Origin: Peptoclostridium acidaminophilum DSM 3953
GTDB lineage: Bacteria > Bacillota > Clostridia > Peptostreptococcales > Peptostreptococcaceae
NCBI RefSeq assembly: GCF_000597865.1
Contig: NZ_CP007452.1
Location: forward strand, 1,433,183 to 1,497,182
Reading direction: 5' to 3'
Length of the DNA: 64,000 nucleotides
Shown: positions 56,206-64,000 of the stretch, in pieces
Layout: each line of letters opens with the position of its first letter
Numbering within the stretch: the first letter of the stretch is position 1
Made by a program: the position numbers and the translations under genes
The notes under the pieces: generated by a model
The model's database searches: none
What the model saw: the letters and a program-made list of their open reading frames with translations, nothing else
Told to the model about the DNA's origin: nothing

Positions 56206-57162
56206 CTAAAGCGACGGTTTGTACACAGCCCTGTTTTCAAGACTCCATACCCTTTGCGAAAAATCGCCGGCACTGACATCACTAAGGGCATTTTTAAAGT
56301 CATACATTCTGGCATCTATCATATCCAGATGATGCAGCATCTCCGCCTCTGGTATAAGAGGCTTTTTAGGGCTCCCAAAATCCGCTTCATAGTGGTGCGA
56401 AAGTATCATGTGCTGTAGCACGAGGAGGACCTCCTTGCTTGTTCCAAGAGCAGCACCTGCCAATTCAAGCTCCTTTATCGCCTGAATTATATGCCCCAGC
56501 AGCTTGCCTTCAACCGTATAGTCCGAGACTATTCCAAGCTCGTTTGCATCCATCTCATCGAGCTTTGAGATATCGTGAAGTATTATCCCCGCATAAAGTA
56601 TGTCCGGATCCAAAAAATCATATATCCCAAGCAGCAGTTCTGCCGATGCAAGCATTGTGGTTACATGGTACAAAAGCCCCGCTCTTATGGCATGGTGGTT
56701 CGACTTCGCCGCAGGATAATATAGAAGTCTCTCCTTTTTGCTTTCTGCAATATGCGCGACTATTCTTTTGATGTCTTCGGATTTTATCTTCGAGATGTAA
56801 CCCAGCATCACATTGTACATCTGCTCGCCTTCATAGGGGGCTGACCTGACAAAATCCTCAACGTTTACGCCGTCCTCACCTGTTATGTTGCGTATCTTCT
56901 CAATCTTGAGCTGCACCGAATCCTTCCACTTGTTGACCACCCCCCTGACCTTGACTATTGAATTCCCGGCAAATCCCTTTTCGTCATCAGGTGTGCTTTC
57001 CCAAAGCTTTCCCATTATATCCCCGCTCTTGTCCGAGAGCAAAAAATCTATATAATTCTTTCCGTTGCTGGCAGTCTTTGTCTCCACTGATTTCACAAGA
57101 AAGAATCCGTCCGCCCTGCTTCCAGGCTCAAGCGCGGACAGTCCTTTAACATCATGATTCAT
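56206..57162 (-). CDS. YhaM-like 3'-5' exoribonuclease (OB + HD)
   Basis: 318 aa. An N-terminal OB fold (about residues 20-95, ADGFFLVKSVETKTASNGKNYIDFLLSDKSGDI) binds nucleic acid; the C-terminal HD domain has LYHVTTMLASAELLL and LHDISKLDEM (about 190-210) with metal-binding H and D. This matches the YhaM family, which degrades single-stranded RNA and DNA from the 3' end. AGGAAGGTG 7 nt before the ATG. Divergent from the YceG-like gene across 244 bp. Confidence 0.92.
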   Translation of the reverse strand: MNHDVKGLSALEPGSRADGFFLVKSVETKTASNGKNYIDFLLSDKSGDIMGKLWESTPDDEKGFAGNSIVKVRGVVNKWKDSVQLKIEKIRNITGEDGVNVEDFVRSAPYEGEQMYNVMLGYISKIKSEDIKRIVAHIAESKKERLLYYPAAKSNHHAIRAGLLYHVTTMLASAELLLGIYDFLDPDILYAGIILHDISKLDEMDANELGIVSDYTVEGKLLGHIIQAIKELELAGAALGTSKEVLLVLQHMILSHHYEADFGSPKKPLIPEAEMLHHLDMIDARMYDFKNALSDVSAGDFSQRVWSLENRAVYKPSL

Positions 57163-57406
57163 CGCCTAACACCTTCCTCATATATCTAAAATAATTTCAA
57201 ATCGAATTTTCATAAATAAGCAGACAGTTCTCCATATAAGCTGCTTTTTGTTCACATATAATCATATATTTAATATAAATATACCACAAATATATGTCCT
57301 GTTCATTCCAATTATTAAATATGCACGCAATAATGCTATGAACGCCCCCTATGCGGGTATACATATCATGTAATTAATCTAGCGCCAGACAAAGGGGGAT
57401 AGGGAT

Positions 57407-58363
57407 ATGGACCGTGATAAAAAGGAGCCTGAAAGCTCTTCAAGGCTTGAGACTATAGCCTTCAAAGCTCAGGCCGAGATTTCCAAAGTGCTTTACGATC
57501 CTTCGCTTGGTATTTTCAAACCCTGGCAGTTTGAAGGATACGCCTCCTCTCCCGTGACTCTCAAGACCACATACGAGGAGCTTAAAATACTCTGGAACGA
57601 AGAGGCAAGATTCAGGCAAGGCTTCGAGGCCAGTAGCGATACCATTGCCATACCCAATCTTTTTGCAAAGATAGGCGGAATCCACAAGGACATATGTGAG
57701 TACGAAAAGGACATCGAGCTGTTCCTCTCTTCAGAAAAAATGTTTTTTTCACCCAAGCTGCCTTTTGTAGACAAATCCCCGGAATCGCCTTGCATAGGAT
57801 ATTCCCGGAATGGGCTTTTACAGCCCAAAGCAGGCTCAGCACTTATGAATTTCATATCAAAAAATGGCGCTTTAAATGTGGACAGTCTTGTTTCAAGCCA
57901 CTTTTTCGAGATTATAAGCTCAAATAAGCAGCTTCAAATAACTATGGCGCAAAAACTGCTGCAGCTTCTTGAATCCGATTTGCTTTTGAAAACGCGCAGC
58001 GAAGAGACCACGCTCAGGACGCTTCATATGCTTCTAAGCCTCGACAAGAGCCTTATAGGACTGCTTGAAAATTTTGATTACCCCTTCGATGTTCCCAAAA
58101 TAGTACTATATATCGGCAGGGAGGCTAATGTTTCGTTTGAGGACTGTGCCGCCATTTCATTTTTTTACCTTTGCGGCTTTGACATACTAGTACTTACACC
58201 ATCCGGGCATAATGACATCGAAATCTATATGAACAGCTATTATTTTGACACCCACCGCCTTAAAGAGCGAAATCCTGACCTTGATTACACCGACTTGAAA
58301 TACAAATGCAATACGCGCGGCAAAAAAGCCAAATCGCACGTGGCTTCCTTTTTTAAAAAGTGA
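57407..58363 (+). CDS. Short YceG-like protein, TelA-associated
   Basis: 318 aa. The stretch TTYEELKILWNEEARFRQGFE followed by AIPNLFAKIGGIHKD (about residues 48-105) and the C-terminal IGREANVSFEDCAAISFFYLCGFDILVLTPSGHNDIE (about 232-268) match the YceG family, which is linked to TelA in tellurite- and stress-resistance loci. Bacillus YceG is about 530 aa, so this copy lacks a large part. Function unknown even in the family. GGGGGA 7 nt before the ATG. Only 16 nt before the telA gene, so one operon. Confidence 0.82.
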   Translation: MDRDKKEPESSSRLETIAFKAQAEISKVLYDPSLGIFKPWQFEGYASSPVTLKTTYEELKILWNEEARFRQGFEASSDTIAIPNLFAKIGGIHKDICEYEKDIELFLSSEKMFFSPKLPFVDKSPESPCIGYSRNGLLQPKAGSALMNFISKNGALNVDSLVSSHFFEIISSNKQLQITMAQKLLQLLESDLLLKTRSEETTLRTLHMLLSLDKSLIGLLENFDYPFDVPKIVLYIGREANVSFEDCAAISFFYLCGFDILVLTPSGHNDIEIYMNSYYFDTHRLKERNPDLDYTDLKYKCNTRGKKAKSHVASFFKK

Positions 58364-58379
58364 GAGGGGGAATTTATTT

Positions 58380-59468
58380 ATGGACAGCACTATCAGCGAA
58401 AATGCATTCGAACTTGACACCCAAAGACAAGCAGACATTATTGCCAAGACAGCAAGAAATTCTGCGGAAATTTCAATTATAGCCTCTGAAATCGACCTCG
58501 ACAATCCCGAGACAATAGCAGCCTTTGGCAACAAAACGGCACATGAAATCTCCAGATTTTCCGACATGATACTAGACACCATAAAAATCACATCTCTTGA
58601 AAATCCGGAGGCTCTTCTTGTTCAGCTGAATAAAATCATGAATAAATTCGACGCTTCCGACTTCAGCGAGGAACAAAAATCCGGCCTTATAGTGCGCATT
58701 ATGAAAAGAACACGTGATTCTATAGACGCGCTTCTGAGCAAATACAGCTCAATGGGAGGCGAAATGGAAAAAATATATGTACGGCTGAAGGAATATGAAT
58801 CAGAAATAAAAAAATCCAACTCTCTTTTGGATTCAATGTTCGAAAAAAACATAGGGTATTTCGAAACACTTGAAAAATACATAACAGCAGGCAGCAGCGT
58901 CCTCCAAAAAATTCAATCGGAGACAATTCCTCAACTCGAATCCAAGGCGACTTTGACAGGCGACCAGATGGATAGGCTCAACCTTTCGAACGCCAGGAAT
59001 ATGGAGGAAATGGTGCAGCAAAGGATTTACGACCTTGAGCTTGCCAAAAACGTCTCCCTCCAGACTATGCCTCAAATAAGGCTTATTCAAAAGGGCAATT
59101 ACAATCTGATTAGAAAGATAAATTCGGCATTCATAATAACCATACCCATATTCAAGCAGTCGCTCATTCAAGCCATAACTTTGAAAAGGCAGCTAATCCA
59201 GGCAAAAGCCATGGCGGCCCTTGACGAGAAAACCAACGAGCTGCTTGTCAAAAACTCAGAAAACACAGCATTGCAGTCCAAAATGCTGGCGCACATGTCT
59301 TCAGGCGGAGCGCTCGACATTGAAACGCTCGAAAAAACCTGGAACACAATTGTCAAAGGAATCGAGGAAACCAAACAAATCCACGAGGATATGAAAAGAA
59401 AAAGGGACGAAGGCACGCAAAGACTTCATCAGATACAAGAAGATTTCAAGAAAAGGTCGGGAGTGTAG
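58380..59468 (+). CDS. TelA family toxic-anion resistance protein
   Basis: 362 aa, the usual size for the family. Long helical protein without signal peptide. The family core MPQIRLIQKGNYNLIRKINSAFIITIPIFKQSLIQAITLKRQLIQA (about residues 230-275) is clear, with coiled-coil stretches before (about 115-160) and after (about 290-355). Members are linked to tellurite and envelope-stress resistance; the molecular role is unknown. GAGAGGGGG about 9 nt before the ATG. Operon partner of the YceG-like gene. No terB/terC/terD genes are nearby. Confidence 0.92.
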   Translation: MDSTISENAFELDTQRQADIIAKTARNSAEISIIASEIDLDNPETIAAFGNKTAHEISRFSDMILDTIKITSLENPEALLVQLNKIMNKFDASDFSEEQKSGLIVRIMKRTRDSIDALLSKYSSMGGEMEKIYVRLKEYESEIKKSNSLLDSMFEKNIGYFETLEKYITAGSSVLQKIQSETIPQLESKATLTGDQMDRLNLSNARNMEEMVQQRIYDLELAKNVSLQTMPQIRLIQKGNYNLIRKINSAFIITIPIFKQSLIQAITLKRQLIQAKAMAALDEKTNELLVKNSENTALQSKMLAHMSSGGALDIETLEKTWNTIVKGIEETKQIHEDMKRKRDEGTQRLHQIQEDFKKRSGV

Positions 59469-59478
59469 ACTCTCCCAC

Positions 59479-59516
59479 AAAAACAGGCCGTTGCGTTTGC
59501 TTCGGCCTGTTTTTTA
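59479..59516. terminator. Bidirectional terminator after telA
   Basis: 12-bp stem AAAAACAGGCCG (59479-59490) with CGGCCTGTTTTT (59503-59514), 12-nt loop, A and T runs at both bases. It also ends the convergent minus-strand gene. Confidence 0.88.
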
Positions 59517-59530
59517 TGCGGAATTTGAAA

Positions 59531-60064
59531 TTATTCTTCTTCTCTGTTTCTGGATTCATAGTATCTGTCTGCAAATTCTACTATATCGGGAGCCACATCC
59601 ATCCCGAAATCAAAGCTCATTTTTAAAAGCTCGCTCACCCGTTCCCAGTTCACGGCTTCGCTTTTGAGCTCCCTCCTGACCATATTAAAAAGATTTCTAA
59701 GCTGCTCTTTTTTGTCGTTGTTCTCTTTTAGCATGTCTATCTTCGAGAGTATCCTGATCCCCACATCGCTGCCTATAGTATCTTCATCCGGAATCTCGGC
59801 GCAATCGCGGCATCCTTCACCTTCCTGCAGGAGTTTTGCTTTTTCCCTTGTTGATATTATCTTCAGATTCAGTATAATGCTCTCAATCGACTGACTTTCA
59901 CGCAAGACCTTGTATTCATCCGAAGACTGCTCATAAATGTCTCTTATAGCATGAAAACAATTGTTGTGCCATTCTATGTATTTGAGCGTGTGCCTGTCAT
60001 CCTCTTCGAATCCAATGCCATCTTCGATAAGCTGATCCAATTTTTTTATTTTATCATATTTCAT
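59531..60064 (-). CDS. Unrecognised 177-aa protein with a CxxC motif
   Basis: I do not recognise it. Mostly helical and charged, no membrane segment, acidic C-terminus (ESRNREEE). A CRDC motif sits near residue 95 (EGEGCRDCAEIPDEDT), and IGSDVGIRILSKIDMLKENNDKKEQLRNLFNMVRREL forms a helical pair after it. Start chosen at ATG 60064 with AAGGGG 6 nt upstream; the open frame runs 38 codons further but upstream residues look non-coding. Convergent with telA, 62 nt away. Confidence 0.72.
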   Translation of the reverse strand: MKYDKIKKLDQLIEDGIGFEEDDRHTLKYIEWHNNCFHAIRDIYEQSSDEYKVLRESQSIESIILNLKIISTREKAKLLQEGEGCRDCAEIPDEDTIGSDVGIRILSKIDMLKENNDKKEQLRNLFNMVRRELKSEAVNWERVSELLKMSFDFGMDVAPDIVEFADRYYESRNREEE

Positions 60065-60180
60065 AAGCTCCCCCTTACTTATCATATTCACAACTGCAAA
60101 AACTATATGAAATAGCCTTATTTGTTTATATACCTTCATTAACCGTTTTTCTAACACATGATTTTTTCGATGCCTCATTT

Positions 60181-61505: not shown

Positions 61506-62012
61506 TTACGGGCAGTTTCTTATAAAAATCAAGAATTCAGTCTCCATAGAGCAATTATTTTTTTCCAGCAATAATACAAGCCTTACTCCTGATTCATCCT
61601 GAATTTTTTCAGCCCTCATTTTGGATACGTAGTTTGCGAATTCGTATCCGGGCTTTGCTCCGCCAATTATGCAAAATAATTTCTTCGTGCTCCTGTTCAA
61701 ATATATTCCCACATTTTCTTCTCCGAATTTGAAGCTTATTTCATCAACATCGCCTCTCGAAAATTCACCCCATGCCGTCTTCCTTCCGTTAGTTCCTGTA
61801 ACTGCAGTTATGCTAGAGGCTCCGTAAAGCCGCGCTTCTATAAAATGCTGCACCGTCATGGCATTTTCATGAAGCTCAGATTCAGACTCGGCTTTTGCAT
61901 ATATGTTTTTCAGTCCTGTCAGCATTTCAAGGCTCATAAGAACAAGCAGCATAGTCAGGAAAGCGTACGCAGCAACCTCCATAAGCAAAAATCCCCTCTT
62001 ATTCATACGCAT
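61506..62012 (-). CDS. Minor pseudopilin (ComGF/PilW-like)
   Basis: 168 aa. An N-terminal prepilin motif KRGFLLMEVAAYAFLTMLLVLMSLEML: cleavage expected after G7, before F, with the conserved Glu at +5 and a hydrophobic helix. The rest is a beta-rich head. Type IV pilus or competence pseudopilin; which one cannot be told. Overlaps the next gene (61999-62454) by 14 nt. Two cysteines in the C-terminal half could form a disulphide. Confidence 0.85.
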   Translation of the reverse strand: MRMNKRGFLLMEVAAYAFLTMLLVLMSLEMLTGLKNIYAKAESESELHENAMTVQHFIEARLYGASSITAVTGTNGRKTAWGEFSRGDVDEISFKFGEENVGIYLNRSTKKLFCIIGGAKPGYEFANYVSKMRAEKIQDESGVRLVLLLEKNNCSMETEFLIFIRNCP

Positions 62013-62454
62013 ATATGCCTTCCCTTATGAGAGTTCTGCCGCTAAAGGGTACTACTGTAACAACCTTCGTATACCCTGTCACTGCGTCTGTAATCCTGAT
62101 TGTGTCCCCGCTTCCCTTGAGAGTTCCTGCAAGTGTAAAATCAAGAGTGCCAAGAGTCGATGTGAATCTGACATCACCTGGCAGCTTTTCCTCTTTTTCC
62201 AACACTCCCTCCTTGTAAAGGGTGTACCCGCAGTGCCCTTTAGAATCCGTTTGAAACTTTATTTTCGCTGTGTCATCGCCGTATATGTTTCTCATCCTGA
62301 CATATCTAATATCCGAACACATTCTCCTTGCAAAGGAATCCACATTCGCTTTTCTTACGTTTGCCGACATGTATACAGCGCCAGACAGCAGCATTACAAT
62401 CGATACGGCGCAGGCCACCTCCAAAAGGAGCATTCCCTGCTTGCCTATTTTCAT
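61999..62454 (-). CDS. Minor pseudopilin (GspH/FimT-like)
   Basis: About 151 aa. The prepilin motif is KQGMLLLEVACAVSIVML, cleaved after G6 with Glu at +5. The head is beta-rich, with SARRMCSDIRYVRMRN typical of GspH/FimT pilins. Start chosen at ATG 62454 with AGAAGGTG 6 nt upstream; the GTG at 62463 is inside that site. One of four pilin-like genes that overlap in sequence, so probably co-translated. Confidence 0.84.
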   Translation of the reverse strand: MKIGKQGMLLLEVACAVSIVMLLSGAVYMSANVRKANVDSFARRMCSDIRYVRMRNIYGDDTAKIKFQTDSKGHCGYTLYKEGVLEKEEKLPGDVRFTSTLGTLDFTLAGTLKGSGDTIRITDAVTGYTKVVTVVPFSGRTLIREGIYAYE

Positions 62455-62459
62455 GCAAA

Positions 62460-63245
62460 TCACCTTCTTCTTACCCAGCCGCTCATACTGACCAGGCTTT
62501 CTAAATCCAGCACGCCTCTTGCATCAACGCTTTTAGGCACCTCCAAATAAAGCTCCCTGTATACGCCTTCGCCCAATTCAATGCTTTTGCCCAAATGTTT
62601 TGTATACAGTTCATATTCTATATGCCCAAAGCCCGAATCGGGTATCTTGATGCCCAGTCTGCACTCTATAACGCATCTTGTCGCTCCAATCGACTTTGAA
62701 GCGGCTACCTCCATAACAAAGGCGTCCACCAGGTCAAATTTAATGTAGTCATTCTTTACGTTTATAAGCACGTCTTCAAAGTCGACATCTTCTATTTGCC
62801 TCACGACTTCCAGGCGCTTCTCAGTCAAGATATAGTACCAGTACACCTTTTTAAAAATCTCGTTCAAGTGACTGTCAACATTCTCTCTGCTGAGACGCGC
62901 CGTGACATTTCCATCCTCACAATACTCGAGCTCCATATACTGGCTATCCTTTCCACTGAGTTCTTTTTCAAGCTCAATCAGCAGAAAATCCTCCAGCTCT
63001 TCATCCATATAAGCGTCCAGTTTGTCGAGACAATCTGCAAATGCGGCTTCCACATTTATAAGCAGGACCTCCTTTGCGAGACTCAAACCTCCATCAGCTA
63101 TGTAAAAACTTCTCTTATGGCTGGCAGCAAGCTCCCTGGCGCTGGCATTCCTGGCTGTAATAAGCACCAGCGTCATGCCAAGAGTCCAGAGTATGAGCAT
63201 TGAGATTATACCCATAATAAGAGCCGAACCTTTTTCATCGCGCAT
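62460..63245 (-). CDS. PilX-like pilus-associated protein
   Basis: About 261 aa. Short basic N-terminus then one hydrophobic helix (GSALIMGIISMLILWTLGMTLVLITARNAS, about residues 7-36), not a G-FxxxE prepilin site but like the PilX/TadE-type start (KGSALI). The remainder is a large acidic head with helical segments (about 75-200). It follows the usual order of minor pilins. Start ATG 63245 overlaps the preceding pilin gene by 11 nt. Confidence 0.8.
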   Translation of the reverse strand: MRDEKGSALIMGIISMLILWTLGMTLVLITARNASARELAASHKRSFYIADGGLSLAKEVLLINVEAAFADCLDKLDAYMDEELEDFLLIELEKELSGKDSQYMELEYCEDGNVTARLSRENVDSHLNEIFKKVYWYYILTEKRLEVVRQIEDVDFEDVLINVKNDYIKFDLVDAFVMEVAASKSIGATRCVIECRLGIKIPDSGFGHIEYELYTKHLGKSIELGEGVYRELYLEVPKSVDARGVLDLESLVSMSGWVRRR

Positions 63246-63645
63246 TTTCCCATCCTGCTCCTTTGAAAGTCTTAAGCTCCGCCAGTGGCTCGTCATTTTT
63301 TAAAACCAGCACGGTAATTAGCAACGTACCCCGGCTGCCCTCCTCGCCGCTTTTTCGCTCCGTAATTATGTCTATGCGTGTTTTTACATCAAATTCGCCC
63401 TCTTCGATTATATTGTCTGAATATTTATCGAAAAATTCATCCTCTTCAATATTTACAAGCATTTCAGCATATAGCTGTGCTGTGTTGAACGCCCGGGCCT
63501 TCTCCTTTGATCTTAGTATAGAGAGCGTGCAATCAAAGAATATCTCCGTAAATGAAACCATTAAGATGCTTATGAGTAAAATGGCGGCGGCGCTTTCAAG
63601 CAGCAAAAATCCTCTTTGATTTAAATTATGGTTATTTTTAGCCAT
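63235..63645 (-). CDS. Minor pseudopilin (PilV/GspI-like)
   Basis: About 136 aa. Prepilin motif NQRGFLLLESAAAILLISILMVSF: cleavage after G11, Glu at +5. The head is small and acidic. Start ATG 63645 is preferred because an earlier in-frame ATG adds a non-pilin N-terminus; the ribosome binding site is weak. Overlaps the 3' end of the gene at 62460-63245. Confidence 0.83.
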   Translation of the reverse strand: MAKNNHNLNQRGFLLLESAAAILLISILMVSFTEIFFDCTLSILRSKEKARAFNTAQLYAEMLVNIEEDEFFDKYSDNIIEEGEFDVKTRIDIITERKSGEEGSRGTLLITVLVLKNDEPLAELKTFKGAGWENAR

Positions 63646-63656
63646 AGCGGCACCCG

Positions 63657-64000
63657 TCAATAGCTGTTTCCAGCTAAGACAAGCAGCATTGTGCACTCAA
63701 AGCTGCCGTCCTTTGCACGAGCTACTCCCATTTCTCTAATTCCTATGCAAGCCTCCTGCAGTTGTACCGACTTAGTAAATTCAACAATCTGAGCTGGGCT
63801 GCCGCTCATATTGAGTTCCACCTCGTACAGCGAAATTTTACGAGAATCGGCGCCGTTTGCTATCTCTTCTATGCGATGTCTTTCAGATACAAGTTCAAGC
63901 CCCAGAAGCCTGTATCTGCCCTCCAGAAACAAGAGAACATCCTGTTGGCTTGATGTAAAATCCATTTTATAGCTTAGAATCTCCGATTTTTCTTGCGCCT
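63657..64000 (-). CDS. Partial PilO/GspM-like pilus assembly protein
   Basis: The frame is open to the right edge; about 114 codons are visible, so the N-terminus and start are missing. The pattern FTSSQQDVLLFLEGRYRLLGLELVSERHRI followed by VELNMSGSPAQIVEFTKSVQLQEACIGIREMGV resembles the C-terminal ferredoxin-like domain of PilO. An ATG at 63965 exists but is unlikely to be the start because the frame continues upstream without a stop. It is the first of the overlapping pilus genes on this side. Confidence 0.7.
   Translation of the reverse strand, partial: AQEKSEILSYKMDFTSSQQDVLLFLEGRYRLLGLELVSERHRIEEIANGADSRKISLYEVELNMSGSPAQIVEFTKSVQLQEACIGIREMGVARAKDGSFECTMLLVLAGNSY

Follow-up and report, generated by a model that had tools for sequence, protein, structure and literature searches.

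YceG reduced to its TelA-proximal domain in a two-gene locus of Peptoclostridium acidaminophilum DSM 3953

Many Firmicutes have stress loci that contain YceG and TelA, and YceH of Bacillus subtilis is a TelA protein. The B. subtilis genes yceC to yceH have been described as one operon under sigma W, sigma B and sigma M, and xpaC-yaaN as another (PMC3498285). In Bacillus megaterium, telA, yceG and three terD-type genes were reported in one operon (PMC9604106), and MeeF (YceF) was presented as a TerC protein supplying metal to exported enzymes (PMC10550928). With respect to phenotype, yceGH mutants of B. anthracis are described, citing Franks 2014, as attenuated and more sensitive to peroxide and cathelicidin (PMC4633105), and a Listeria mutant in the TelA/YaaN-like gene lmo1967 showed raised sensitivity to nisin and tellurite, by a mechanism stated to be not known (PMC12791056). 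In this study, a yceG-telA pair was analysed within a window of 64,000 nucleotides from the genome of P. acidaminophilum DSM 3953. The window pair resembles its counterpart in the yceCDEFGH operon in gene order (YceG and then YceH, the TelA protein) and in Pfam families; however, the B. subtilis pair follows yceC-yceF in one operon (PMC3498285), whereas the window genome lacks TerD and TerC. XpaC-TelA (YaaN) is likewise a two-gene unit with TelA, but its partner is XpaC rather than YceG (PMC12791056, PMC3498285), and Pfam returned nothing XpaC-like for either of the genes that flank the window pair. The mobilizable-type plasmid pFI430 of Lactococcus cremoris (L148) carries a complete ter/StiP operon that includes YceG-TelA. 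As in the window, its YceG precedes TelA; in contrast, its YceG has 534 aa and two repeats, and the pair is flanked by a lyase, a PRTase, StiP, three TerD genes and DUF475. The Pfam model of YceG comprises a single domain of 250 positions, which implies that the repeat is known to Pfam curators. No description of YceG repeats or of a one-domain YceG was found in the titles and abstract openings of the papers listed in literature searches.

The window gene yceG (57407..58363, plus strand) encodes a protein of 318 aa with a single YceG domain (PF14266, E-value 2e-42, 146 bits against a cut-off of 25) that was assigned to the C-type in repeat trees. The gene begins with ATG, and a ribosome-binding-like AGGGGG motif was read in the sequence 8 bases upstream (57393..57398, plus strand). 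Its open frame spans only 326 codons from stop to stop, so that no longer start is possible. Residues 1-52 (57407..57562) form an N-terminal extension of the C-type repeat which, according to the alignments, includes P39-W40-Q41 and matches the inter-repeat linker of the Peptoclostridium litorale YceG. The domain proper follows (residues 53-288, 57563..58270) and covers profile positions 1-220. These results bear out the sequence-only reading, which had noticed a 318-aa YceG-like protein with an LFAKI segment, here residues 85-89. The second gene, telA (58380..59468, plus strand), encodes a YceG-linked TelA of 362 aa (PF05816, 2.9e-107, 359 bits against a cut-off of 30, positions 4-329 of 332) and is separated from the yceG stop by 16 bases, in which a ribosome-binding-like GAGGGGG was read (58364..58370, plus strand). 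An intrinsic terminator with a 12-pair outer stem and a T run lies 3' of telA (59479..59514, plus strand; fold of -22.4 kcal/mol, z of -4.96 against shuffles), and it is absent from the sites of a stricter pattern scan.

Outside this unit, the left flank is a YhaM-like 3'-5' exoribonuclease (56206..57162, minus strand; NCBIfam NF010007, 8e-95, below the equivalog cut-off of 460 bits), and the right flank is a 215-aa protein without Pfam match (59531..60178, minus strand). The divergent intergenic region between yhaM and yceG (57163..57406) has 244 bases and holds no N-type remnant. When positions 57101-57500 were searched in six frames for similarity to N-type repeats, none was found and all hits had E-values of at least 0.44; a frameshifted or intergenic remainder of a longer YceG upstream of the gene was therefore ruled out. 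Rfam gave no match anywhere in the window, and the PADLOC anti-phage profiles gave none at E <= 0.01 for YceG, TelA, the 215-aa neighbour or the P. litorale YceG. Further along the window, positions 61506-63965 (minus strand) hold a run of short ORFs with pilin-like hydrophobic starts, which continues in the congener with ATPase-like and inner-membrane-like genes and, by eye, resembles a gene cluster for a type IV pilus or for a competence pseudopilus.

Profile searches of whole genomes indicated that long YceG proteins consist of tandem copies of the PF14266 domain. Separate profiles were built in which the last repeat was termed C-type and the earlier repeats N-type, and the proteins accordingly read as N-C (about 500-570 aa) or N-N-C (about 750-870 aa). 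Two sets of loci, which share some genomes, were compared. Set A comprised 40 loci and the window, with 44 YceG-domain ORFs, and contained N-C in 24, N-N-C in 12, C alone in 4 and N alone in 4. Set B comprised 36 named loci with 37 ORFs from one scan of a genome contigs collection, and contained N-N-C in 32, N-C in 3 and C alone in 2; one of these two is the congener of the window species, and the second is the 3' part of a gene with a frameshift in Clostridium bovifaecis (L135). In that complete genome, the gene takes the form of two ORFs that overlap and lie in different frames (L135:4369-6872). The family is thus not normally as short as in the window, since N-C or N-N-C predominate. About 530 residues had been expected for a Bacillus YceG, and the N-C protein of Bacillus sp. 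M6-12 (L118, 566 aa) fits this figure, whereas the window protein is C only. The description of the window gene as a strongly shortened YceG holds for the protein and fails for the domain, which is single and complete where other proteins have two or three; on alignment, the N-type repeats are absent and the C-type repeat is retained. The window YceG is a new architectural variant, namely a YceG reduced to its TelA-proximal domain.

In set A, the lone YceG ORFs without another domain attached are those of the window, the congener (L065), L087:9652-10644 (minus strand, 330 aa) and L089:1029-1904 (minus strand, 291 aa), and all are of the C-type. The L087 and L089 proteins have no adjoining TelA, and their genomes (G612 and G272) also encode a multi-repeat YceG and a TelA elsewhere. 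The N-only ORFs of this set are two protease fusions (L072 and L091), L104 with an internal stop codon, and L100:2197. In the fusions, an N-type domain without a C-type domain is joined to a trypsin-like protease (PF13365; L072:14901-16337 and L091:9036-10475, both plus strand). In L072, a complete YceG-TelA pair is found about 5 kb away from the fusion gene, and the contig also carries TerD genes in the vicinity. Three unverified gut metagenomic records titled 'Bacteriophage sp.' (L149, L150 and L151) contain a multi-repeat YceG with TelA; they are probably bacterial fragments, and a phage origin of YceG-TelA was not adopted.

Two trees of the repeats were built. In the first, a quick tree with 99 repeats that included low-scoring fragments as rows, the last repeats fell together with every lone C domain on one side of a branch with support of 100 and length of 2.32, and this side also took in two low-scoring fragments. 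In a careful tree of 76 rows, from which the low-scoring fragments and seven near-duplicate loci were left out, 33 rows, exclusively C-type repeats and lone C domains, lay on one side of a branch with support of 100/100. Within this group, the YceG proteins of the window and the congener joined repeat 3 of P. litorale, with support of 97 (quick tree) and 87/94 (careful tree), and in 355 of 400 bootstrap trees. Moreover, the TelA tree placed the window and the congener with P. litorale (support of 95). The congener, titled Peptoclostridium sp. MAG AA_UR_SE bin6 (L065, identical to L107), has the same one-domain YceG at the same site, so that the short form does recur in a related genome. The two proteins are 66% identical over the whole length, and the one-domain form is therefore no assembly error.

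P. litorale DSM 5388 (L074, identical to L108) has the closest TelA and C repeat outside the window genus; however, its YceG is an N-N-C protein of 853 aa, again with TelA. The same flanks, namely the YhaM-like exoribonuclease gene and the gene for a protein of about 200 aa that has no Pfam match, surround YceG-TelA in the window, in L065 and in L074. At this site, P. litorale has between TelA and the conserved neighbour a 131-aa ORF with weak zinc-ribbon matches (L074:7023-7418, plus strand), for which the window has no room at the same place. The window YceG has only about 14 residues before its alignment with the start of the third-repeat region of P. litorale. From the trees and the shared site, the simplest and most likely history is that both N repeats were lost in place. 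Support for this history is good. The window case represents a single event in evolution rather than a statistical rule.

The pair had also been said to stand apart from ter genes, and this was upheld across the genome. The window genome (3.06 Mb in 2 contigs, 99.96% complete) encodes one YceG domain and one TelA by whole-genome profile searches; it has no match to TerD (PF02342), to TerC (PF03741, positive in 9 of 14 control genomes) or to StiP (PF11202, matched in neither G000 nor G001). In the family of the window species, YceG is present in 36 and TerD in 39 of 71 genomes, and 34 of the 36 YceG genomes have TerD; the exceptions are the window genome and the congener. Outside the family, TerD was found in 24 of 27 genomes with YceG above the cut-off (G617, G633 and G662 fell below it and were not counted). 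The remaining three, G568 (L105), G653 (L103) and G434 (L101, with a TerC gene near its YceG), keep an N-C protein despite having no TerD, and ter loss as a sufficient cause of the loss of N repeats was therefore ruled out. Altogether, YceG occurs without TerD in 5 of 63 genomes, in 2 of which it is a lone C-type protein. In P. litorale, a ter cluster lies on another contig than YceG-TelA (L143:5397-15704, minus strand) and contains a PRTase-TRSP-StiP-PELOTA protein, a C-C bond lyase, a cation ATPase and TerD.

The genomic position of the repeats, their rates of divergence and the existence of N-type repeats without a C-type repeat in the protease fusions (L072 and L091) all bear on the relation to TelA. 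In 33 of the 36 named loci, the C-type repeat is followed by TelA in the same orientation; in L121 and L141 the sequence ends there, and L111 has none within 6 kb. In set A, TelA is next to 36 of the 44 YceG ORFs. In a mirror-tree comparison of 60 loci with N-C or N-N-C and TelA, from which six duplicate loci were dropped, the order d(TelA) < d(C) < d(N1) held in 95% of pairs. The distance correlation with TelA was 0.887 for C and 0.778 for N1, with partial coefficients of 0.70 (0.702) for C given N1 and 0.25 (0.246) for N1 given C. The C-over-N1 difference was positive in 300 of 300 half-samples, although the N1 distances are nearer saturation, which by itself lowers their correlation and could yield part of this difference. 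Over 35 loci, the partial correlation of N1 with TerD given C was -0.17, a value confounded by TerD paralogy, and a role of the N repeats as TerD docking modules found no support in these distances. Taken together, these comparisons lend moderate support to an assignment of the C domain to TelA, and on the best reading the C-type domain would be the partner of TelA and the N repeats dispensable accessory modules. It had been proposed that the window protein may be a minimal form that reveals the portion of YceG required for TelA. This agrees with what was kept (the C-type repeat with its PWQF extension), with what was lost (the N-type repeats) and with TelA distances that follow C. That the C repeat alone would suffice for TelA goes further, as we infer it from these patterns, and, as L087 and L089 show, a C domain can occur without TelA beside it.

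Structure prediction with AlphaFold2 was run with the window YceG and 27 C-type relatives, and the resulting model had a pTM of 0.79, the first approximately 45 residues and the loop 128-143 being uncertain. A model of the last two repeats of the P. litorale YceG had a mean pLDDT of 79.9 and a pTM of 0.49, with linker residues 244-255 below a pLDDT of 50. This prediction suits loosely joined domains with a flexible linker, and a fixed N-C interface was rejected on the same loose placement. The truncation point of the window protein falls in the inter-repeat linker region of P. litorale. Searches by sequence for solved relatives returned none convincing for YceG (best E-value 0.58) and none for TelA, and Foldseek against PDB and BFVD returned nothing at E <= 0.001. 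VIA-align matched the window YceG weakly and mostly to AAA+ P-loop proteins (best Z of 6.9, rmsd of 3.9, 144 aligned). For the two-repeat model, similarly weak matches were an Mcm2-7 chain for the C repeat (Z of 7.3, rmsd of 4.8, 137 aligned) and TnsC for the N repeat (Z of 6.9, rmsd of 4.4, 148 aligned), with SF1 helicases and GajB at lower ranks. Since models that lack a clear match often give Z values of about 7, the AAA+/SF1 likeness serves only as a lead. The window YceG has no Walker A motif, and the motif is not conserved among the YceG ORFs, of which 2 in 81 had a stray pattern match.

We consider it probable that the window pair is a reduced, ter-independent YceG-TelA module, in which the C-type domain would work with TelA and the N repeats were accessory. 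Both N repeats would have been lost at the inter-repeat linker, leaving a stand-alone C-type protein under purifying selection. The C-type domain may be the part that acts directly with TelA, and the two proteins might form a cytosolic unit for tolerance of envelope or oxidative stress. Its working surface could comprise the PWQF extension together with E58, R70, Y99, Q177, K183, D224, K231 and D259. Polar residues that are invariant over 28 C-type rows include Q41, E58, E65, R70, Y99, Q177, K183, D224, K231 and D259. The N-type repeats, in turn, may serve as flexibly linked accessory modules, either for other partners or for avidity, which could become dispensable once the rest of the Ter system was gone.

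The long and well supported branch between N and C repeats, together with the faster divergence of N than of C in the distance ordering above, speaks against the idea that the N repeats are redundant copies. According to this idea, a C-only protein, perhaps homodimeric, would serve the function of the N-C or N-N-C proteins with the same partners, and differences in repeat number would be neutral variation in size. Related genomes do have one, two or three repeats, N and C repeats match similar P-loop-like alpha/beta shapes (with weak Z values), and three genomes without TerD keep N-C; these observations favor redundancy. The four unattached lone proteins of set A, however, are all C-type, whereas the four N-only ORFs include the two protease fusions and one ORF with an internal stop codon. 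Redundancy is therefore regarded as a doubtful, if still serious, alternative. It is also conceivable that the single domain is the ancestral state, which the window protein retained while multi-repeat YceG arose by duplication. Tandem arrays must, by inference, derive from a single domain at some point; an old single domain, however, should branch outside the N/C split, but the window YceG lies inside the C-type clade, beside the third repeat of an N-N-C protein encoded at the same site. This history appears highly improbable.

The rates of change in the window genus bear on whether the short yceG is a decaying remnant that has eroded after ter loss, with TelA kept for another reason. Between the window and the congener, dN/dS (NG86) was 0.197 for YceG, about three times that of TelA (0.071) and of the neighbours (215-aa protein, 0.058; YhaM, 0.059; aminopeptidase, 0.051). 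Moreover, the C-repeat stem branch is 0.88 for the window genus against 0.37 for P. litorale, and the TelA stems (0.51 against 0.24) follow the same trend to a lesser degree. Several family-wide positions have changed as well: T266 to S and Y268 to H in the window genus are substitutions at positions fixed in the other 26 rows, and the window genus keeps 53 of 69 strongly conserved C-type positions against 58 in P. litorale, so that some YceG function may have drifted. Decay, however, does not agree with an intact frame of near-equal length in both genomes, a complete domain, and an intact ribosome-binding motif and operon layout. The ratio is also well below 1, and, as judged from these ratios, the window YceG is under purifying selection that is weaker than on its neighbours. 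C-type repeats evolve faster than TelA in other genomes too; since their dN/dS elsewhere reaches 0.03 to 0.31 among the pairs listed for which dS was computable, the window genus is not exceptional in this respect. An eroding yceG thus seems very improbable, and the reduced module of C-type YceG and TelA is preferred.

A broader reading can be offered tentatively, and we would not press it. YceG might be a modular adaptor in which the C-type domain is the obligate partner of TelA and the N-type domains are interchangeable targeting modules, with the window genus holding a minimal, Ter-free machine of C-YceG and TelA; the domain would be a P-loop-like alpha/beta fold without Walker A, acting as a scaffold or sensor and not as an ATPase. 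The window genome also uncouples YceG-TelA from the metal-sensing and biosynthetic Ter genes that usually accompany it. One YceG domain and one TelA in a genome with no Ter proteins point to the domain that should be expressed, the residues worth mutating and the partner to be tested.
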